A stretch of 43,087 nt of DNA, taken from positions 355,821 through 398,907 of the forward strand of contig NPFB01000084.1 in assembly GCA_014084085.1 (NCBI GenBank). The letters are read 5' to 3'. Below, one piece after another: positions 3,563 through 15,717 of the stretch (position 1 is its first letter; the number at the start of each line of letters is the position of its first letter). The stretch is from Hondaea fermentalgiana. Lineage: Eukaryota; Sar; Bigyra; Thraustochytrida; Thraustochytriidae. The translations under genes were made by a program, and so were the position numbers. A model generated the notes under the pieces. The model was not told where the DNA came from. It worked only from the letters and a program-made list of their open reading frames with translations, and made no database searches.

Positions 3563-6500
3563 CTAGAGCTGCTCCGGGGGCTGCTGGTCGGCCAGGGGAA
3601 TGCAGCGAAAGAGATGTGTCTTCATATCCTCGAGCGTGCGCACCTTGCGCCAGTAGTCGGTTCCGCTCGGCACCCAGAATTGCATGAGCTCTTCCAACGA
3701 GTAGACCGTTCCATCGAGCTCGACAGGATCCGCAAGTTCGTCTCCAGCAAGGTCAGTACGCCCCAGAGACACACGACGATTTTTTGTGGGAAGGTCTTTC
3801 CACACCACGTCTCGAGCAAATTCTAGACGCAGCTGGCGTTCCCATTCGCCCCACTGCGCGAGCCACGCCTCAAAGTCCTCCTCCGAAATGGCGCGGATCG
3901 TGCGACACACATTGAAGATCTCCGATGTAGGAATATCAATGTACGATCCGTAGCGCATCATGCGCGAGGATACAGGGAGGTTCAAAGGGACCCGAAGATC
4001 GATCTCGTACCTCAAAAACACGCAGACATCATCGGTACTACTGTAGCCACCGCGCTTCGCGATCGAGCGAGCCGCGGCCTCATGGACGTATCCAAGACGC
4101 ATGAGGCGCCGACCGAGCTCGCGGAGCTTCGTGCGGTCTCCACGTGCACGCGCAATTTCGCAGACAACGTGCATTTGGTTCAGCGCCCAGATTGGCTTGT
4201 CTTCGCACGTGTCGATGCTGGAAGTCATGCAAATGACGAGCTCTTCGCGCGTCCCAGGGTCGTCCACAAGCAGCTGAATGATCTCCATCACCCGCTCAGC
4301 AAGGCCGCGTCGCATGTTCCTCTGCCGAAACTCGCTAGCTGTACGAAGCTTACTGAGGAACCGTACAACACTGCGCACGTACGCAGCTTCGACACAGGGC
4401 TTGATGTCGAGAATGGGAGGAGGTTTGCTCGATTTGCCAACATTCGGTTGACTTCCGCGGCTGCTGCTGCTCTGCCTCGCCGCGCTCTCACCTGTATCAG
4501 CGCCGGCAGGCTGCTCTGATTCCGGATCCTCGGCAGATTCTTGAGCGGCCTCCTGAGCGGCCTCCTGAGCGGCCTCCCGATCGGCAATGATCTTGATGGC
4601 CTCTTCGCTCAGCGGTCTGCCGTCCTTTGTGACCCACCCAGCAACAGTACTCCAGAAGCGCACAGCGTCGTCCAAATCGCCGATGGAGTCGTCCGAGTCA
4701 TAATCATCATCAGAATCATCCACGTCACTATCCTCGCCGTAGTCGTTGCGAGATTCTGGATCGTCACGTGTCACAATGTACTCCATCGCCTCCTCCCGCA
4801 GACCGTGATCTTCGGTACTATTAAAGTAAAAGTCGACGCCCTCGCGACCGCTTTGGCGCCAGAGCGCGACCGTTTCTGAATCATCCGTCACCCCTGTGTT
4901 GGCCACGTGAACGGCATGGGTAAATCGAACCGGTTTCTCTGGCATCTTGATCTGTTCAATCTCTGCAATCGCGTCGCTTTCTGCAATTTCAGCGCTCGCG
5001 ACTTTTTGCAATATCTCTGCTATCATGGCCTCCTGTTCCGGTGTGAGGTCTACTTGCGAACTTGCAAACGACGCAGCGCTTACATTCGATGTGGCAGACG
5101 CTGCAGACGGACGCCTAGGCGGTGCGAGGGAAGAAGAAGAGGACGATCCTCCCCGGAGGCGCCTTCCAACGCTGCCAAGCGCGCTTCGCGCGAGGCGCGA
5201 CGAAAGGCTCGAGCCCGAGCCTCGACGGCGAGTCGCGCCGGCCGTCTGCGAAACCTGCGAGGCAGACCTCGATGGTCGCGAAGTCAACGACCTACGTGCA
5301 GACCGGGAAAGTCGGCCACTATGCACAGATGGAGTCGTCTCGAGATCAGCCTCCCCATCGCCTTCATCGTCGGCGTCGCTACCAAGGTCGACATCGTCGT
5401 CGTCGGTGGCGGCAGCAGCAGGATCTTTTGTCTCTTCGATGATGGGCTCGAGATCCTTGCGCGCTTCTTCTTGAGCAGCTAGACGAGCCTTGCGCTTGAT
5501 TTCTTGAATCTCAAGTCTGCCTTGCGCAGCCGCGGTGGCAGCTTCGTCACGCTTCGCCTGCGCTTGCTGCCGAGCCTCATTGGCCTCCTCCCAGAGCGTG
5601 CGTGCTTCTTTAGCTTTGTCGACTGCATCGGCCATGAAATTGAGCAAGGACTGCGGAAGGCTTTCAATCATGACTGAACCATTGATCATCAGGTCATGGC
5701 CTACCTGGACATCGTCAGGAAGAGACCTGATCTCGCCACAGCCGACGACGCTAAGCGTTCCGGGAACTTTGAGACCGCGCGGGATCTCCTTCAGCTTGAC
5801 GCAGTCGACCAAATGCAGGGAGACGCCAGTTCTTTCTTCGCTGCTTGCCTCCGAAGAGGTCGGGAGATCGTCGAAAGTGCGAAGAGGTTCCTCTTCGGGC
5901 TCCTCCATGTCGCTCTCCGAGCTGCTAGATGAGGAAGAGCTGCTGCTGTCGCTGCTGTCGCTGCTGTCGTTGCTGTCGCTCCTGCTCCTATTCCCGTGGT
6001 GGCGGCGATGACTTCGGCCAGCGCCTCCTTCAGCGCGTTCTGCAAGGCTATACTCGGTGACGATGCGCGATTCGACGCTGGAACGGCTTCGCGTGAACAT
6101 CGGACGCATGACCTTGGACGCCATCGTGCCGATGCGGCTCATCTTGCGCACGGGTGTGGCATTTGCGTTGGAGAGCACAGGAGGCGCCGAAAGACTCCAG
6201 TTGGTCGGCAGCGTTTCCAGCTCAGGGCACTCGAGAATAGTGAGGGACCCGCGCACATGGAGATCAGGCGAGATCTTACGCATTTTTAGGCACTGATACA
6301 CGATCGCCGACCCGTACACTTCAAAAGGGGGCAAAGTCTCGAAGTCGTCCGCCATTGCAAGAATCAGCGAACCGTAGACGGTCAGCTTGCGTGGCATTTC
6401 CGAAAGACTGCTGCAGCCGAGAAGATTGAAAAATCCCTCTCCGTCTGCGTTCGAAATCTTGGTGAGTGCAGGGTAGCCCACAGTGATGCGCGTCTTTGCA

Positions 6501-9500
6501 AGTGACTTCAACGCCATACAATAATGCATGTCAATGGCTTCGTAGCAGACGAGCTCCTGCGGCATCTCACGCAGCGATGTGCAATGCTGCATATGGAGAC
6601 AGCCTTTCGGAATGCGACCGCTCTCTCGGTGATGGACGAGCCCGGGATCCGGAATGCCAATTTCGAGGCGTTGGGCCCCCAGCTTTTCTAGAGACGTACA
6701 GTGCGACAAATGCAGATCTCCGTAGACGCGCTCAAGATAGACCTCGCGCAAGCGCGGGCACCGACGAAAGTTTGCCTTGCCTCCAGACACCTCGGCGTTC
6801 GCCTCGGACTTGACCTGACCTACGATTGTGCCGGGACGAATCTTGACAAGTTCTGGCATCCCCGTGGCAACGAGATTGCCGAGAACACGGACCGGTGGAA
6901 GCTCGACGATGCTTGACCCGGAGAGCGTTAGATCGCCGAGCACCTCGGTCATGCCAAAGAACTCAAGCGCCGTGCAGCCGGTGAGATCAACATCACCTCG
7001 CGCCTTAGAGTCCACAACAATAAAACCGTTCTTCCATCGCCCGCGCACGCGTCCTACACGCAAGCCGCGTGGAATGATACGAAGCGCCTTGCAGTTGCGC
7101 GCTTCGAGGTTTGCGAGGTGGGCATTGGACGGTATACTTGTCAACGAATGGCAGTTGGAAATATCGAGCTTCAGTTGACCCTTTGAGTTTGCGAGCGCCT
7201 CATCGGGCAAGAACATGAGATTGCGACAGCCAGAAAGGCGTAATTCCTCAAGATTCGGCGGAAGGACGTCCGGAATCATTTTAAGCTCGAGCGAATCACT
7301 CAGATTCAGCGAGCGGAGATTTGTCAGCTTGACCAGCAACGGGCTCAGCACACTTGAGTCCTGGAACAGCACGTTGCACTGCGTAATTTCCAGATCGCGA
7401 AGCGAGTCCAGATCCTCGTCGGGAACGTCGAGTGTGGTGAGGTTAGAAAGCTCCTGCAGACGCATTGACGACCTTGCGCCCACCACGGAGCAAACCTCGA
7501 GCATGGGTAGATTGCTGAGGTTGACGGTGCCGTTCACGCGAAAGGGAGGGCCAATCTGCTGCACCTTCTCACAGTCTCGTACCACGAGCTTGCCTAAAGT
7601 GCGAGATCCCTCGAACGTGACGGCCTCGAGCATGTTGCACAACATGAGAGTCACTTCGACCTTGGGCCCCACGCTGGCGCTCTCGGTCGCCATTTCTTTT
7701 AGGCTGGCAAGACTTTCGAGTTCTAGGCTGCCCTTCTCGACGAACAAATGCGTCGCTAGCGACTCGAGCTGTGTGCAATGGTCGACAACCAAGGCACCAT
7801 CGATGGTCAGCCCACCTGCAGCAACTTTGGTGAGGAATTGACATCCGGAGATTTGCAGTCGACCGTGCATAACCACCTCCGGTGTGGAAGTCCAAAGCTC
7901 GTTGACGTTCCTGCACCCGTTGATGTAAACTGACACGGACGATGACTCGTCTGAAGTATCATTGTCATTGTCTGCAGAGTTGAGCGCAAGGGCCTTGGGA
8001 TCAAGTTGAATGCCGTCGAGCGAAGAAAAGCCCCTACAGCTCGAGACGCTCAAGCGGGAGCTCACCGTCACGCCAGCCATGGATGCCAGAGAGTGGCAAG
8101 AGGTCAAGTTGAGGTTGCGAACAGTGAGACCGTCCAAATCATGCAGCGCAGGACCCGCGCGAACCTTTTCCTGCTCCTTTTGAAGTTTCAATCGCCGTTT
8201 CGTTCTCTGCTCGAGACGGCCCAGATACTTTATCCACTTCGCCCGCTTCCTGCGCCGTTTCTCTCTGTAAGCCTGTTTTTCTCGTTCCTCGCGTCGTTCG
8301 CTTCTCTCCTGACGCCGTTTCGCTCGATTCTCGCGACGTTCCGCTCGACCTTCCGTCTCAGACCCAGAGGAATCCTCTGAGACGTAGTCGCGTGCGTCAA
8401 AATTCGTTGCTGCCGCGCGGATTCGATCAAAGGCCCAGTAGGACCAGATTTGGATTTCGCGTGCTTGATCGCTAGTCATTGCACGGCAGGTCTCGAGCGT
8501 ACGGAGAGTGTCGCTTTCGATGAGCCTATCCAAGAGATTTTCAAAGCTCTCGTCCTCTTCGATCAATGGGGCCATGAAGCAGCGCAACACTTCAATTTCC
8601 CGACGGCCCTCGGGACTATCGCGCGGAGGCACTCTTAGGTCCACCTCGCCTTCGGGGAGCTCGAGCTTATCGAAGGCGCTCACAACGGCTTGTCTGTGTC
8701 TTTCAAGAATCAAGTCATAGCCATTAGCCAGGCCCTCGACCGTCAGCGCCCGAGCGGCCCGAATTGTGCGAACTCCCTGATCGTAGAACATGTCAAAATA
8801 AGAAGCCAGGCCTTCAAAGCGAAGGGCGCGCAGAATTGCCTTTTCTTGGTCATTCAGCGGTCTGCGTCGCCACGCCCCGGGATAACGATCCGGATTGCCG
8901 AACTCGGCATCCGAAAGGTTCTCGTCAATGTCGTCATCACCAAAACTTGCAGACGCCGCCTCAGCCGAGAAGAGGCGACGCGTTAGTCTCACAGTGGTCA
9001 TTCGATCCATGCCCCAGAGGGGGCTTTCGGACTCGGTCATGATCGCAAGCAGCTTAGCCTTGCAATCATCAATGGAAGAAGTCCCCTCGTCCTTCATTGT
9101 CTCCCAGTATCGCGCCATGCCGAGGCGAGCAAGTATGCGTAAGAGAGGTGGATCGCGCTCGGTACGGGCAGCTGCATTGCGGATAGCAAGCATAATTTCG
9201 GTCCGCTCGCGAAAGCTTGTAACCCCGAGCTCCCAGAGATCAGCGTGCGAGAGCTGGCTAGCAGCTCGCAAGGCGTTCGGTTTGCGCCCTTGTACTTTGC
9301 CAAGGAGAGCAGGGGCGCACTCGTCCCAACCTGCTGTTTCTAAAATGTGCTTGACATGAGAAGCAGAGCCGTAGCGGGGCTGTGAACGACGCCGCATTGC
9401 TGATGCGGAGGACAGTTGCGATGCGCGCCGGCGGCCCGAGGCGGCTGATGTTTGCGACCGACGACGCGTTGCAGACGAAGCCGTCGAGCGCCGGCGCGAT

Positions 9501-12500
9501 GACCGTGAGCGAGATGTCTCGCGTGGCATGGAAGGGGACTCATCTTCAGCATTGCTGAGCGACGCATCCTCCTCTTCATCAACTTGAGAACTTTCCTTTT
9601 CCGCGATCTTTGCAGCCTCTTGGGCGGTGTCCTCATCGGACCAGGACGATGCGCAGGAGCTCGACCCGCCCGAGTCGTAACCGTCCATAATTACCATGTC
9701 AGAACCCATCGTCAAGCGGGTGTGGGGCAGCGCCTTGAGAATGCGCAGACTGTCTTCGGTCGAGATGCCAAACTCTCGAAGCTGAGTGATGTTCAACGAC
9801 TTGAGTCTTTCAATACTCCTTACGCCACAACGCACAATAACGTCGTGGTATTGCTCTGTATCGACTGACTTGAGAAATTCGCGAACGGCAAGGGGTCCGT
9901 CCCACATGTTGAGAACAATTTCCTTTTGCAGGGCTCCTGTGGAAGACGCCGTCGAGTCCGAGTCAGAACTGGATGCGCGACCGCGTTGCGTCCCCATCAT
10001 TGGCATTTGATGCAGGCAAGCCAGAAGCCTATCATTCTGGGCGCCAAAGATCTCGGCAAGCGCGTCGGCAGAAATTGCATGAAGTTGCGCGACCGTGTGA
10101 TAGCCTTGCTCAAAGAGGGCTGGTGCAACGTGAGCAAAGCCAGCGCTTGCTAATTTGGCAAAAATAAAGTCCCTTTCGTCGCCCTCAGCCCTCTCACACA
10201 ATACCTGCGAACTCGCGTCGCTAGCATTGTCTTCGCTGGGCAATCTGGACGTTCGCCGTTCACTTGCCTGAGAACCTCGCCGAGAGGAAGAGGCTTGACT
10301 GCTCCTTTTACTCTCCCTTTTTCCCTTTTTCTTATCCTTCTTCTTCTTCTTCTTGACGGGAGGCTCGCTACCCTCTTCGGCAAAGTCCGCGGGGAGGTCA
10401 GCGGCGCGAAAAGCCTCAATGATCTCGGCACGAGCCGCGTACGAGGCCACTTTACATCGCCTCAGAGAATCGTGATCGAGGTTTTTTAACTTCACCGTTG
10501 CGCAAAGCCGAGCTTGCGTCATTTCCTCGTACAAGGGGCCCTGGTCGATGCTTGCGAGGACCTGATATACTGGCGAGGCCAGCTTCGCGCGTACGCTCTC
10601 ATCTTGGGCCTCTTGATTTTGACGCTCTGCTTCGTCGACGAGCTCTTGTGCATCGTCGATAGCCTCTTGAGAGCCTTGCGACTCTGCTTGCGCCTGAAGC
10701 TCGAGAGCAGCTGCGGCATGGACAGCAGCAATAATGCGCTGCCGCTTCTCGAAACGCACGTAGCCAAGCTCGCGCAAACTTTGGTGAGACATCGACCATG
10801 CTGCCTGGGCTGCGGTGTAGATTTTTTTCGATTTCAGCCTGGCGACAAGACTTCGCTCATCAATTTCATTGAGTGCCTCCACAAGTGCAGGACTTGGCGT
10901 GCGCGCTGGCCCAGCTTCAACTTCACCAGCAATTCTACGCAAAGCAGCTATGATTGGTTTTCGCGTCTTCTTAAATTGCATGCCAAGAGCCTTCATCTCT
11001 TTGTTCCCGACATAGCGGCACGTGTCGACGTTATCGTATCCCCCTCTTTTCAACTTTTCGTACCATTCCATCAGATTCTCACGACGCAGCGCTCTGCGCA
11101 AGCGCTTGCGGAAAATCCGTTGCGCTTTTTTATCATTTGCCGCGTTTGGATCAGCTTCGTCGCCACTCCTCTCCTTGTCAACATCACTGTAGTCTTCTTC
11201 TTCTTCTTCCTCTTCGCTGCTGTCCTCTTCGCTGCTGTCCTCTTCGCTGCTGCTCGAGCCGCGGCCAGAATACCTGCTTCTACGAACTCTGCTTCCAGAG
11301 CTGCATTGCGTGCGCCTGGTTTCGGAACGGCGCGTCAAGGCATCTTCGCTATCATCGTCACTGGATGTTGCACGATACCCCTCCCCCTCCCAAAAACTAC
11401 GGTCGCGCATGGCCGCTAACACTCGTAATCGCGTAGAGAACATGAAAATGCCTGCCTCGCGCAATTGCCCATGTGAGATATTTTGACAGGCTTCGAATGA
11501 ATCAAAGCCTCTACTTTCGAGGTGACGAAGAATGCTCTCATCCAGGTCAAAGTTTCGAAGAGCTTGACGCAAGGTGCGACCTGGTCTGCCAGTGCTCTCT
11601 CGTGCCGGTGCTGGTGCTGGTTGCCGTCGATCAGGGTGCGACCATGCTTCGCGAGAGTTCAACATCGTCAAAAGTCTGACGCGGTCAATGAAGCGATGTA
11701 CGCCCCAAACAAGCAACTGCCCGTGCGAAATCGTGCGGCAAGTCGAGTATGTCAGCGAATTGGCTGCGGTAAACCTTGGCAGCAGGTCCTCGCGATTGAC
11801 GGCTCGGAGGATCCCCACAAGACCAGCTTCAATATCTTCTTCCCCAGCGTCCTTATCTTCTTCCTCAGGCTCGTCAGGCTCGTCAGGCTCGTCAGGCTCA
11901 GCCTCGGCATTTGCAAACGCCTCGAGGACTCGCTCACGATCCAGAAAAAGCCGCACCCTCAAGCTATTGTGCAGAAAAAAGTGCGAGAGGAGACTTTTGC
12001 AGACACTCACCGAAGTAAGCCCCTGGCTTTTGAAGGCCGGCCACAGGGTGTCTTCCATTTCGATGCTTGAAAGAATTTTGCGCACGGTAGTAGCATTTGA
12101 CGTGTATGACAACGCCAGAACCTTCTTACGATCCTTTTCATCTTCCTCGTCCTCGCTTTCCGTTGGGGTGTCGCTCTCGTGCACGCTGTACTCAGACACT
12201 GACGAGAGGCTGGAGTGATCAAGAGCGTCATCAAAAACGTTCCAGCCTGAAGGGACGCACTCGACCAGCTCGATACGACCGAGCTCAGCGGTTCCTGACT
12301 GCGAGAGCCCTCCTGAAAGAGGCGAGTTTCGGATTTCCACGTCAACACGGTTGGGGTTCGCGGTCTCCAGGTGACCGGCGAGGAATTTCAGGGAGGGGCA
12401 ACTGAAGATGTGCACTGCGAGGTCAACATTAGCCTGCGGTTGAAGATGAAGGTGGCCCTCCGTGATGCAAGCAAAGTGTCGGCAAGATCGGACACTCAGA

Positions 12501-14185
12501 GGCCCGGTCAAGTGCAACGAGCCTGCGCTGCTAGAGAGCGACTTGAGGGCCGGGCAATCGTCCAGATTTGCTCCGGCGATGGTGACTTCGCCTTTCGACA
12601 AAGCGCGGAGAGCTCTACAATTGCTAATTGACAAAGACCGTGAGCACTCGAGCGAGGAGGTCGCCACGGTCTTGAGCTTTGCGCAGCGCTCGAGCGTGAG
12701 CCCCGCAATGCTTACATTGTCGCCTAGAGACCGGAGTTCGTCGCATCCTCGAATGTAGACGCTGTGCGATGCACTGATCAGATTCGGCGCGAGCTCTTCG
12801 ATGTCATCCAAGCTTGACAAGTGCAGATCTGAGGTCACGCAGGTATTCTCGAGCCAGTCAGCTGCGCCTTTGACGCGTTCCAGATTGAGATTCTTGACTG
12901 TCCACGCCACCTCGGCGGGGTTCACATTCGGCATGGAAGCGTCGCGGATCTTAACGGAGCACTTTGTACGGATACGCTCGGGAAGACCCGGAATGTCGCT
13001 CAGCTCCCCGTTCATGTTGAGCCATAAGTCTTTTTTGAGCCGGAGACCGCGAACTTGTGGCGGCCCCTCGCGAGCCTCGAGTTCGGCGATACGATCTTGG
13101 CGGGCCTTGAGAAGACGGGCGCGACGGCGGGCATTTCGGCGCTCCACGCGCTCGCGCTCCAAGCGAGCACGAACGCGTTCTGGAGCGCGTGTGTCCTCGA
13201 AGGCGGAAATGATAGCGTGGCGAGCAACAAAGGTAGTCACACCGGCAGCGCGGAGGGGCACATGCGTTAAGGTTCCGCACCGCGAGAGTGTTGTCCACCC
13301 ATTTTCTTCAAAAAGCGGAAACATATCCTCCATACCAATACCGCGCAAGAGTTGGCGAATCATAAACGGCTCGTTTGACTCAGGATCGGTACTCAGCTCG
13401 CCGGACTCGTCGTCACTGATGTCTTCGGGATCAAAGTTCTGACCGGGATCACTGTTAACGGCACTGGAGGCATCGAGATTTTCAAATGCGGCGATGATGC
13501 GTTCGCGCATGGAGAACAGCGGAACGTCTGCAGCGCGCAGATCAGAGTGAGACACATTGCGAAGCCGATCGAGCGTCACAAGATTCTCGCGCTCAAAGGA
13601 TGGGATAAAGTCTGCATGTCCAATGTTACGAAGGACGTTCGCGATGGTCACCATCTCATCGTTTCTGTCGAGGTCGTCGACGTCCGAGTCGTAGTCAGAT
13701 CCGTAGTCGAGGGCTGGCGCTGCAGCGTAGAGAGCTTTCTTGACTTGATCTATGCCATCAACGTTTGCGCTTTCCACTCTGTCGGCCCAGTCTTCGATGT
13801 AAGCTCGTGTCGCTGCATCGCAGCGAGAGCGGTCTTTCTTCTTGGACCTTTTCCGTCTCGGCCGTCTGCCCCTTGATCGTGACGCGCTGCTCGAAGATCC
13901 TGACGTGTCGCTGTCGGAGGACAAGGGCGAGGACTCTTGCGAGGAGCCGCTGTCACTGGTTGCGCTGTCCCGCTCCCGCCTGAGCAGGCGATTCGCTGCT
14001 TCTTCGTCGTCTTCGTCGTCCGAGCGGTCCGAGTCGCGGCGCACCACGACGTCTTCGCCGTCTTCGGGGCCCAGGCCTGCCTCCGCGAGGCTTGCCGCCA
14101 GGGCTGCTGCGAAGGCGTCTTCGTCGCTCTGGCCGTCCTGCTGCTCGCGCAGCGCCCGCAAGAGGTAGCTCTCGTTCTCGCTCAT
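3563..14185 (-). CDS. giant UIM / SAM-like repeat / LRR protein with C-terminal NEL-type E3 ubiquitin ligase domain
   Basis: One uninterrupted ORF of 3540 residues. Residues 21-36 (DEDAFAAALAASLAEA) fit a ubiquitin-interacting motif. About 14 SAM-like helical modules of roughly 60 residues follow (near 180-238, 274-331, 700-760, 788-843, 870-928, 1022-1086, 1099-1156, 1203-1262, 1336-1395, 1433-1488, 1609-1672, 1680-1740, 1781-1840, 1866-1925). Leucine-rich-repeat blocks occupy about 385-660 and 2012-2850, many units reading V.G.L.L..C..L..LP. A coiled coil lies near 2855-2915, and acidic or Ser/Arg-rich linkers separate the modules. Residues 3260-3460 resemble the NEL domain: Cys3327 sits in SSIDTCEDKPIWALNQM, matching the CxD catalytic motif with Asp3329, and the later WLAQWGEW (3441-3448) matches another conserved NEL stretch. 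NEL enzymes pass ubiquitin through a Cys thioester. The start is the first ATG before the UIM. No signal peptide or transmembrane segment is seen. Ligase activity is inferred from motifs only. Confidence 0.9.
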   Translation of the reverse strand: MSENESYLLRALREQQDGQSDEDAFAAALAASLAEAGLGPEDGEDVVVRRDSDRSDDEDDEEAANRLLRRERDSATSDSGSSQESSPLSSDSDTSGSSSSASRSRGRRPRRKRSKKKDRSRCDAATRAYIEDWADRVESANVDGIDQVKKALYAAAPALDYGSDYDSDVDDLDRNDEMVTIANVLRNIGHADFIPSFERENLVTLDRLRNVSHSDLRAADVPLFSMRERIIAAFENLDASSAVNSDPGQNFDPEDISDDESGELSTDPESNEPFMIRQLLRGIGMEDMFPLFEENGWTTLSRCGTLTHVPLRAAGVTTFVARHAIISAFEDTRAPERVRARLERERVERRNARRRARLLKARQDRIAELEAREGPPQVRGLRLKKDLWLNMNGELSDIPGLPERIRTKCSVKIRDASMPNVNPAEVAWTVKNLNLERVKGAADWLENTCVTSDLHLSSLDDIEELAPNLISASHSVYIRGCDELRSLGDNVSIAGLTLERCAKLKTVATSSLECSRSLSISNCRALRALSKGEVTIAGANLDDCPALKSLSSSAGSLHLTGPLSVRSCRHFACITEGHLHLQPQANVDLAVHIFSCPSLKFLAGHLETANPNRVDVEIRNSPLSGGLSQSGTAELGRIELVECVPSGWNVFDDALDHSSLSSVSEYSVHESDTPTESEDEEDEKDRKKVLALSYTSNATTVRKILSSIEMEDTLWPAFKSQGLTSVSVCKSLLSHFFLHNSLRVRLFLDRERVLEAFANAEAEPDEPDEPDEPEEEDKDAGEEDIEAGLVGILRAVNREDLLPRFTAANSLTYSTCRTISHGQLLVWGVHRFIDRVRLLTMLNSREAWSHPDRRQPAPAPARESTGRPGRTLRQALRNFDLDESILRHLESRGFDSFEACQNISHGQLREAGIFMFSTRLRVLAAMRDRSFWEGEGYRATSSDDDSEDALTRRSETRRTQCSSGSRVRRSRYSGRGSSSSEEDSSEEDSSEEEEEEEDYSDVDKERSGDEADPNAANDKKAQRIFRKRLRRALRRENLMEWYEKLKRGGYDNVDTCRYVGNKEMKALGMQFKKTRKPIIAALRRIAGEVEAGPARTPSPALVEALNEIDERSLVARLKSKKIYTAAQAAWSMSHQSLRELGYVRFEKRQRIIAAVHAAAALELQAQAESQGSQEAIDDAQELVDEAERQNQEAQDESVRAKLASPVYQVLASIDQGPLYEEMTQARLCATVKLKNLDHDSLRRCKVASYAARAEIIEAFRAADLPADFAEEGSEPPVKKKKKKDKKKGKRESKRSSQASSSRRGSQASERRTSRLPSEDNASDASSQVLCERAEGDERDFIFAKLASAGFAHVAPALFEQGYHTVAQLHAISADALAEIFGAQNDRLLACLHQMPMMGTQRGRASSSDSDSTASSTGALQKEIVLNMWDGPLAVREFLKSVDTEQYHDVIVRCGVRSIERLKSLNITQLREFGISTEDSLRILKALPHTRLTMGSDMVIMDGYDSGGSSSCASSWSDEDTAQEAAKIAEKESSQVDEEEDASLSNAEDESPSMPRETSRSRSSRRRSTASSATRRRSQTSAASGRRRASQLSSASAMRRRSQPRYGSASHVKHILETAGWDECAPALLGKVQGRKPNALRAASQLSHADLWELGVTSFRERTEIMLAIRNAAARTERDPPLLRILARLGMARYWETMKDEGTSSIDDCKAKLLAIMTESESPLWGMDRMTTVRLTRRLFSAEAASASFGDDDIDENLSDAEFGNPDRYPGAWRRRPLNDQEKAILRALRFEGLASYFDMFYDQGVRTIRAARALTVEGLANGYDLILERHRQAVVSAFDKLELPEGEVDLRVPPRDSPEGRREIEVLRCFMAPLIEEDESFENLLDRLIESDTLRTLETCRAMTSDQAREIQIWSYWAFDRIRAAATNFDARDYVSEDSSGSETEGRAERRENRAKRRQERSERREEREKQAYREKRRRKRAKWIKYLGRLEQRTKRRLKLQKEQEKVRAGPALHDLDGLTVRNLNLTSCHSLASMAGVTVSSRLSVSSCRGFSSLDGIQLDPKALALNSADNDNDTSDESSSVSVYINGCRNVNELWTSTPEVVMHGRLQISGCQFLTKVAAGGLTIDGALVVDHCTQLESLATHLFVEKGSLELESLASLKEMATESASVGPKVEVTLMLCNMLEAVTFEGSRTLGKLVVRDCEKVQQIGPPFRVNGTVNLSNLPMLEVCSVVGARSSMRLQELSNLTTLDVPDEDLDSLRDLEITQCNVLFQDSSVLSPLLVKLTNLRSLNLSDSLELKMIPDVLPPNLEELRLSGCRNLMFLPDEALANSKGQLKLDISNCHSLTSIPSNAHLANLEARNCKALRIIPRGLRVGRVRGRWKNGFIVVDSKARGDVDLTGCTALEFFGMTEVLGDLTLSGSSIVELPPVRVLGNLVATGMPELVKIRPGTIVGQVKSEANAEVSGGKANFRRCPRLREVYLERVYGDLHLSHCTSLEKLGAQRLEIGIPDPGLVHHRESGRIPKGCLHMQHCTSLREMPQELVCYEAIDMHYCMALKSLAKTRITVGYPALTKISNADGEGFFNLLGCSSLSEMPRKLTVYGSLILAMADDFETLPPFEVYGSAIVYQCLKMRKISPDLHVRGSLTILECPELETLPTNWSLSAPPVLSNANATPVRKMSRIGTMASKVMRPMFTRSRSSVESRIVTEYSLAERAEGGAGRSHRRHHGNRSRSDSNDSSDSSDSSSSSSSSSSESDMEEPEEEPLRTFDDLPTSSEASSEERTGVSLHLVDCVKLKEIPRGLKVPGTLSVVGCGEIRSLPDDVQVGHDLMINGSVMIESLPQSLLNFMADAVDKAKEARTLWEEANEARQQAQAKRDEAATAAAQGRLEIQEIKRKARLAAQEEARKDLEPIIEETKDPAAAATDDDDVDLGSDADDEGDGEADLETTPSVHSGRLSRSARRSLTSRPSRSASQVSQTAGATRRRGSGSSLSSRLARSALGSVGRRLRGGSSSSSSLAPPRRPSAASATSNVSAASFASSQVDLTPEQEAMIAEILQKVASAEIAESDAIAEIEQIKMPEKPVRFTHAVHVANTGVTDDSETVALWRQSGREGVDFYFNSTEDHGLREEAMEYIVTRDDPESRNDYGEDSDVDDSDDDYDSDDSIGDLDDAVRFWSTVAGWVTKDGRPLSEEAIKIIADREAAQEAAQEAAQESAEDPESEQPAGADTGESAARQSSSSRGSQPNVGKSSKPPPILDIKPCVEAAYVRSVVRFLSKLRTASEFRQRNMRRGLAERVMEIIQLLVDDPGTREELVICMTSSIDTCEDKPIWALNQMHVVCEIARARGDRTKLRELGRRLMRLGYVHEAAARSIAKRGGYSSTDDVCVFLRYEIDLRVPLNLPVSSRMMRYGSYIDIPTSEIFNVCRTIRAISEEDFEAWLAQWGEWERQLRLEFARDVVWKDLPTKNRRVSLGRTDLAGDELADPVELDGTVYSLEELMQFWVPSGTDYWRKVRTLEDMKTHLFRCIPLADQQPPEQL
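3806..4408 (-). other. NEL (novel E3 ligase) domain of the giant protein
   Basis: Codons for residues 3260-3460. The order of landmarks matches the bacterial IpaH/SspH/SlrP-type NEL fold. First comes an amphipathic helical lead-in (FLSKLRTASEFRQRN), then the catalytic TCEDK loop (Cys codon at 4205-4207), then ALNQMHVVCEIARARGD. Next are R.LMRLGYVHEAA, DDVCVFLRYEIDLRVPLNL, MRYGSYIDI, and EEDFEAWLAQWGEWERQL. Family assignment is by eye and needs a profile search. Confidence 0.82.
5636..8152 (-). other. second leucine-rich-repeat block of the giant protein
   Basis: Codons for residues about 2012-2850. Repeats of roughly 20-24 residues follow the pattern V.G.L.L..C..L..LP. Examples are GDVDLTGCTALEFF, GDLHLSHCTSLEKLG, and VRGSLTILECPELETLP. 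A Ser/acidic linker (about 2700-2790) splits the block before the last units (SLHLVDCVKLKEIPRGLKV). The block lies N-terminal to the NEL domain, the same order as in bacterial LRR-NEL effectors, and would be the expected substrate-recognition part. That role is inferred. Confidence 0.8.
8411..13648 (-). other. array of SAM-like helical modules in the giant protein
   Basis: Codons for residues 180-1925, broken by an LRR block near 385-660 (genomic 12206-13033). Units share a pattern of L..I....L...F...G..T...C..ISH..L...GV..F..R..I..A. Examples are IGMEDMFPLFEENGWTTL with AAGVTTFVARHAIISAF, and FDLDESILRHLESRGFDSF with AGIFMFSTRLRVLAAM. This is the sterile alpha motif logic, in which the late (L/I)G..... 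R..I....... helix is diagnostic. Copies have diverged strongly, so not every one may fold as a SAM domain. SAM arrays often polymerise, which would make this a scaffold. Confidence 0.72.
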
Positions 14186-14308
14186 CCTGTGCGCGCACGC
14201 GTCTCACGTCTGCGTCTCACGTCTGCGTCTGCGTCTACTGCGGCGGCGACGACGACGAGACGCTGCCAGTCGCCTCACCTCGCCCCGCCTCGCGTCGTCT
14301 CGACCGCG

Positions 14309-14332
14309 AGCAGCAGCAGCAGCAGCAGCAGC
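14309..14332. repeat. (AGC)8 trinucleotide repeat
   Basis: Eight perfect AGC units lie 124-147 bp upstream of the giant-gene ATG, in its presumed 5' leader or promoter. They are non-coding in the calls made here. Confidence 0.95.
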
Positions 14333-14644
14333 TTGCGCTGCACGTGCAGCACGTGTTCTCCAGCCGCTCCTCTCTCTCTTCTGCAACGTCGGCGAGGCGC
14401 GGACGCGGGGGGAAGGGGAGGGGAGGGTGGAGGGAGGGAAAAAGAGGCGCGCGAGGGCGCCTTCGCGACGCGACGCGCGTGGGCGGCCTCGCCGTGCACC
14501 TGCTGCCTGCTGGGGTCGGTCGACGGCCGACGGGTGGATGGGTGGTGAAGGATCCAAGTTGGTCTTCGTCTCGTCGAGTGATGCTCTCCGATTTTTCAAA
14601 ACCTCGCTCGCCCGCTCGCGCAGCTGCAGCAGGGCCAGGCCAGG

Positions 14645-14670
14645 CGGCGCGGCGCGGCGCGGCGCGGCGC
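14645..14670. repeat. (GGCGC)5 pentanucleotide repeat
   Basis: Five GGCGC units run head to tail in the divergent promoter region, in a very GC-rich context. No function can be assigned from sequence. Confidence 0.9.
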
Positions 14671-15717
14671 TGCTGCCGCTCCGCGCTCGCGCTCGCGCTC
14701 CGGCCCGCGCGCGCGCAGGCGCGCTGCAGGCACGCAGGGAGGCAGCGAGGGAGGCCGGCAGAGGCAGGCACGCGTCTCCTTCTCTGCTGCTCTTTCCTAT
14801 TCGGGTTCTGCACGCGCCGCGGCAACGCAGAGAGGTGCAGAGGGGGAGGGAGGAGCAGAATGTATGCGCTCGCGGTAGCCGCGCGCTAGGGGGGGGTAGC
14901 CGCGGGGGTGTGCGCACGTCCCGACTCGACTCGAAGCGCGAGGACGCGACGGCGACGATAGCGACGGCGACGGCGATGACGATGACGGCGAGCAGAGGCG
15001 AGCGGAGGCGAGAGCCCGCGAGAAAGGGGGGGGGGAGGGAGGGAGGCGGGGCCGGCGTCTCCGTCGCCGCGCGCGGAGGAGCGGCGAGGGAGAACGGCGG
15101 GAAACGAGCCAGCGTGAACATGCAGTGGGCTCACTCTTGTGCGGCTCCAAGTGGCCGGCCAGCACGGAAGGCAAAGTGTGGTTTCATGGCCAGGCTTTTT
15201 ATTACAAAAAAAGGATGAATGAAGACCTGGTCGTGAGAAGGTCGTGAAAGAGATGATGATGTGCTTGAGATGAAAGGACTTGGGAGGAAAGATCTTGGAG
15301 GGGACACGCGAGGAGGCGCGCTTGTTCGTATTTACATTCGCGAAGAAGCACCATCTTTGCTTGAATTTCGACTTGTCTGCCAGTCTCTGCCTTTGCCTGC
15401 CAGCCTATCAATGGCATGTTTCAACGCGACGATAATCGGGGGCCTCATCCACGATGGGACGGCCGGGCGCTTCCAATGGTAGGAGAACCATTCTGTCACG
15501 GATGTGATGGGCATTGAGAACAGGTCCACGGCGTCTTTGCATCTGAGCCCCTGCCAGCCAGACATTCTCAGTCGTCCGGGTTCCTACTACTAGGCCTCAA
15601 CTTCAAGCTGGATGCTCTTGATGATCACTGGCGATCACCGGTCAAGAAGAAGAACAAGAAGAAGCTTGCCGAAAACAAACGGAAAAGATCAAAACACGAT
15701 TATCGCCAGCGCCGAGG

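Follow-up and report, generated by a model that had tools for sequence, protein, structure and literature searches.

A family of genes with NEL-type ubiquitin ligase domains in the genome of the thraustochytrid Hondaea fermentalgiana

The window analyzed here is a 43,087-nucleotide stretch (positions 355,821 to 398,907) of contig NPFB01000084.1 in assembly GCA_014084085.1 of Hondaea fermentalgiana, a thraustochytrid belonging to the Labyrinthulomycetes (Stramenopiles). One of its genes codes for a giant protein that carries near its C-terminus a NEL domain, the catalytic domain of bacterial effector ubiquitin ligases such as IpaH, SspH1 and SlrP. We conclude that this gene is probably one of 13 native thraustochytrid genes whose products are E3 ubiquitin ligases of the cysteine type, with NEL as their catalytic domain. 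NEL ligases are presented in a review (PMC9320238) as weapons that bacteria direct at the ubiquitin systems of their hosts.

The NEL domain, its paralogs and its homologs

There is good evidence that the window protein belongs to the NEL family. A first-pass annotation of this DNA had placed a NEL domain near residues 3260–3460 (window positions 3806–4408), and the Pfam profile PF14496 matches inside that stretch with a score of 95.7 bits, far above the cut-off of 24 (Table 1). The same annotation had named a CxD motif at Cys3327/Asp3329 and a downstream WLAQWGEW; both are read in the translation, the two residues being the Cys and Asp of CED within TSSIDTCEDKPIWALNQM. A phmmer search of PDB sequences returned 13 rows at E≤1, and 12 of these are NEL enzymes, from SlrP (3.9e-12) to IpaH7.8 (1.1e-6); the thirteenth, BGL14 (E=0.13), is not a NEL enzyme. 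The alignments pair the CED of the window protein with that of SlrP and SspH1. The predicted fold of the domain also matches known NEL structures, so that both the profile search and the structure comparison proposed in the annotation bear it out.

Searching the whole assembly (238 contigs, 36,005,907 bases) with the NEL profile gave 13 places above the cut-off on 12 contigs, and none of 14 control genomes had a match above it. A protein query recovered these 13 genes again, over 14 rows because one of them is split. Their front parts vary: SAM repeats and leucine-rich repeats (LRR) in the window protein, SPRY and LRR in L010 and L013, ARM instead of LRR in L011 (a weak ARM match), and LRR in others. 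An LRR part upstream of NEL, which is typical of the NEL family although not universal, is thus present in the window protein. Among the other 12 genes, a Pfam LRR lies above the cut-off in three (L010, L013, L015) and only below it in three more (L017, L018, L019); the remaining six have none, although repeats are visible by eye in five of them. Two of the NEL genes are arranged head to head within 10 kb on contig C172 (L009:2771–5281, minus strand, and L009:6139–9003, plus strand).

All paralogs (13/13) keep the catalytic Cys and Asp, and the pair is likewise unchanged in all 15 rows when the Bradyrhizobium NEL and P0018 are included, and in 18/18 rows of the homolog set. Homologs outside this genome are P0003, eight of the 11 proteins of one search (the other three being Hondaea's own) and five from another, namely P0019 from Bradyrhizobium and four proteins of eukaryotic kind. 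The window protein and its ortholog P0003 are 72.6% identical in NEL, 67.2% in the last domain and 37.8% over the whole protein; NEL is the best conserved part, and the next best stretches are in the LRR near residues 2401–2600 (64–66%).

An unrooted NEL tree was built from 35 rows after removal of the duplicate L024, with 26 eukaryotic rows and few bacterial kinds. It pairs the window NEL with P0003 (99/99), L010 with P0013 (96/100), L016 with P0015 (100/99), L019 with P0006 (97/91), L009a with P0009 (98/84) and L018 with P0005 (85/85). These orthologous pairs span lineages, and several duplications therefore predate the lineage split. Bacterial rows fall to one side of a branch (95/95); 17 of the 32 inner branches have values below 80, and P0019 forms a long branch.

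One could suppose that the NEL fold has been kept in proteins that are not, or are no longer, ubiquitin ligases, and that use it as a binding module in a scaffold or sensor. E3 activity through a Cys-ubiquitin intermediate is indeed deduced here from sequence, the eukaryotic members score 80–109 bits with the NEL profile versus ~130–259 for full-length bacterial matches (bacterial part-matches are lower), the window protein has a giant, SAM-rich architecture, and L014 reads CGDMIV where the others have CxDKP. However, the invariance of the catalytic pair and the strong conservation of NEL are what would be expected of an enzyme, and we regard loss of activity as improbable. Even less probable is a role outside the protist, with the proteins being secreted and acting on the cells of other eukaryotes, a notion drawn by analogy from bacterial NEL effectors; the 3540-residue length of the window protein and its acidic, low-complexity start (judged by eye) speak against it.

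Several of the related records call for comment. P0004, P0011 and P0014 are deposited as Disease resistance protein TAO1, Tubulin beta chain and Ryanodine receptor, and P0011 seems to fuse a NEL gene with the adjoining tubulin gene. P0007 is labelled Durusdinium trenchii, a dinoflagellate, and P0007, P0008 and P0012 bear importin-like, PRP6-like and SspH1 names; they may reflect thraustochytrid DNA in a Durusdinium trenchii record, or gene models that were joined. Pieces of this genome match the PRP6 part of P0008 at 63% and 47% identity, which does not settle the source of P0008. P0018, from an ENA contig, is a NEL of 205 residues with an unusual letter composition and may belong to another eukaryote with a lower-GC genome.

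A candidate U-box-like domain behind NEL

Behind NEL lies a domain of ~65 residues that, within this genome, is confined to NEL genes. It likely has a U-box-like fold, an assignment less firm than that of NEL itself. Model m8b17346506dc of this last domain (predicted local distance difference test, pLDDT, 82.1) has a predicted strand-strand-helix core, and the first named Foldseek matches in PDB are the U-boxes of E4B and Prp19, along with AvrPtoB and LubX. When a profile of the last domain was compared with the genome's own U-boxes, its score exceeded those of 800/800 column-shuffled controls. U-boxes contact the E2 ubiquitin-conjugating enzyme through a hydrophobic residue in the first loop and a proline in the second; a hydrophobic-x-G motif is present in 25/26 last domains, and by eye the spacing from the hydrophobic residue to DP equals that in the genome's U-boxes. 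At the place where the E4-type U-box of the genome has D-P-F-N, P0016 has D-P-H-N. L012 is the sole paralog whose last domain is without the hydrophobic-x-G and DPV part. The domain is absent from the 10 bacterial tails examined, including 9/9 from Pseudomonas (L020–L028).

Several results weigh against this assignment and would suit an unrelated small fold that does not descend from a U-box, for example a cap keeping NEL inactive. None of 12 tails (L012 lying outside this set) matches the Pfam U-box at E≤5, and a profile search of PDB with the last domain gave no U-box. The fold scores are modest (Foldseek E 0.08 at best), two of five models have a mean pLDDT below 58, and the usual E2-contact proline is replaced in 25/26 last domains and kept in one. 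Such an alternative has to be taken seriously, but we find it the less likely one given the identity of the named Foldseek matches, the behavior of the shuffled profiles and the shared spacing. This domain and the multigene family go beyond what the first-pass annotation had described, and the domain is what is new here.

Host genome, origin and layout of the window gene

The first-pass annotation had described typical eukaryotic surroundings with no sign of an assembly junction, and the neighborhood does look ordinary. Neighbors of the window gene code for an acid phosphatase, an abhydrolase, an AMP-binding enzyme, a purple acid phosphatase, a lipase, a nitronate monooxygenase and a filamin with PH, while 3/10 neighboring open reading frames (ORFs) have no Pfam family. 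GC content at third codon positions (GC3) is 0.662 in the window NEL tail, with seven neighbors spanning 0.597–0.796, and GC3 of the NEL parts tracks that of their own gene in most cases, the largest gap being in L018 (0.81 vs 0.698). L018 is letter-identical to P0004 over 1109 residues and L013 to P0014 over 1767, both deposited as Hondaea fermentalgiana; the first 910 residues of L009a recur in P0011, which also carries that label. Contamination or a chimeric join, a question raised merely by the bacterial kind of the domain, is scarcely credible and we reject it: the 13 genes are spread over 12 contigs, one of them 1.1 Mb long, orthologous pairs occur in other datasets, two proteins are identical to Hondaea records, GC3 is host-like, and identity to the Bradyrhizobium NEL is only 21–25%. 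At the sequence level the NEL genes are native to the thraustochytrid genome.

Most simply, the family would have been acquired from bacteria and expanded by duplication, the U-box-like domain being added and the target-binding parts changed. NEL was found in 5/5 Pseudomonas genomes reached through loci and in 6/299 drawn Pseudomonadota genomes (centre included), in several kinds; because this census covered Pseudomonadota only, we name no bacterial donor. Patterns drawn from the 13 NELs hit 80 stretches in GTDB genomes, none of which was confirmed, and a scan with a mixed set gave nine loci, all in Pseudomonas. The best match of the P0010 LRRs is an LRR protein (E=2.9e-14), with SspH1 at 6e-5, and the LRR parts are possibly akin to those of bacterial NELs. 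The reverse course, in which NEL arose in eukaryotes such as thraustochytrids and was taken up by bacteria, could draw on the diversity of the eukaryotic set (26 rows with deep branches, old enough for orthologous pairs). NEL occurs in few of the proteobacterial genomes sampled, yet across several kinds, and reviews (PMC9320238) regard it as bacterial, with predictions in >900 species; we consider a eukaryotic origin improbable. A giant-virus source was considered and rejected: a scan of viral contigs with the 13 NELs matched four stretches, none a relative. When the Bradyrhizobium NEL headed the query set, a scan of this kind gave 35 contigs at 36–38% identity, one at 30%, and given this identity and the contig type these are probably bacterial prophages. 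Searching structure models of viral proteins gave 81 matches at E≤10 and none at E≤0.001. Beside full NELs, each of five Pseudomonas genomes (G001–G005) has one short match to profile positions 1 to 72–101, within frames of ~1,260–1,320 residues: a shortened NEL kind.

The layout of the window gene is given in Table 1. The Pfam LRR_EndoS match of the second LRR block has 29.1 bits against a cut-off of 27.9, while the first LRR-like block has no LRR match in the Pfam scan; a simple LRR pattern counted none in the window protein and was judged too strict to be used. SAM_2 covers three stretches of the protein, and a profile trained on the window protein itself finds the 12 SAM-like repeats, with no matches in each of 20 shuffled sequences. 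No RING1-IBR-RING2 zinc domains were matched in the Pfam scan of the protein. Just upstream of the giant gene, at window positions 14001–15000, GC content rises to 0.71, and a 305-residue ORF there has no Pfam match.

Table 1. Features of the giant NEL gene, in window coordinates.
Feature	Position	Strand	Basis
Giant-protein ORF	3563..14185	−	3540 aa, open end to end; ortholog P0003 (3458 aa) in another dataset
NEL domain	3815..4372	−	Residues 3272–3457; Pfam PF14496, E 3.5e-27; model matches NEL structures
Cys3327 codon, presumed catalytic	4205..4207	−	Aligns with Cys of CED in SlrP and SspH1
Asp3329 codon, presumed general base	4199..4201	−	Invariant CxD Asp
Candidate U-box-like C-terminal domain	3596..3778	−	~Residues 3470–3530; model m8b17346506dc, fold matches, profile comparison with shuffles
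Second LRR block	6026..8218	−	~Residues 1990–2720, limits by eye; Pfam LRR_EndoS at residues 2217–2271
First LRR-like block	12116..13018	−	~Residues 390–690, by eye only
Stretch with 12 SAM-like repeats	8399..13636	−	Residues 184–1929, broken by first LRR-like block and linkers

Proposed function and comparison with known systems

If the genes do encode ligases, a ubiquitin-loaded E2 would dock on the C-terminal module, with the U-box-like domain helping to recruit it in a two-module layout that recalls the RING-between-RING (RBR) ligases. Cys3327 would then accept the ubiquitin, with Asp3329 acting as general base, a role that we assume from bacterial NEL enzymes, and would hand it on to a lysine in a target bound by the N-terminal part. 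The target holders may be the LRR blocks and the ~12 SAM-like repeats in the window protein, and LRR, SPRY with LRR or ARM repeats in the paralogs, although the SAM-like repeats could also build polymers or scaffolds. That the 13 genes represent a new eukaryotic hybrid class of E3, in which NEL is joined to a U-box-like domain that docks the E2, the target-binding parts are interchangeable (SAM/LRR, SPRY/LRR, ARM, LRR) and the relay is RBR-like, is a tentative proposal, possible rather than probable.

The literature searched, which was without subscription papers and preprints, holds no description of a thraustochytrid NEL family, and one elsewhere is possible. In the relevant part of a 2019 paper a NEL domain is reported in Klebsormidium nucleotide-binding LRR (NLR) genes, by likeness of the SSF52075 LRR-type domain (PMC7145615), and PF14496 is merely listed among the profiles searched in Giardia in the corresponding part of PMC7029713. 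The sequences themselves are not new, because public records exist under misleading automatic names. A native NEL family in a free-living eukaryote would mean that a cell can put the fold to use in its own ubiquitin system and would provide a natural test of NEL restraint in the absence of a bacterial-type LRR lock. It also bears on how genes move between bacteria and protists. Should the U-box-like domain dock E2s, it would constitute a third cysteine-E3 layout beside HECT and RBR.

The bacterial NEL effectors (IpaH/SspH/SlrP/NopM, PF14496) share with these proteins the CxD NEL domain, its predicted fold, its C-terminal place and, in most members, the upstream LRR. Type III NEL effectors are bacterial gene products that a secretion system injects, whereas the genes described here are 13 paralogs in a eukaryotic genome, with no secretion context, with SAM, SPRY or ARM parts in some, and with the U-box-like domain behind NEL. 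The long Pseudomonas proteins (L020–L028) also have NEL at the C-terminus of large proteins and, by eye, resemble the eukaryotic ones in a C-A-D catalytic motif and an LxLPxxxxxML stretch; they differ in having no U-box-like domain in any of nine tails and are ~25% identical. With U-box E3/E4 ligases (E4B/Ufd2, Prp19, CHIP) the last domain shares the predicted strand-strand-helix core, the hydrophobic contact position, DPV and a helix Trp, but it is below Pfam detection, has the loop proline replaced in 25/26 cases and is coupled to NEL. Its model also resembles AvrPtoB, a bacterial effector whose E3 domain is U-box-like and which we take not to be a NEL protein. The RBR ligases, such as Parkin and HOIP, have an unrelated catalytic domain; the likeness to them would lie in the combination of an E2-docking RING-fold module with a catalytic cysteine.
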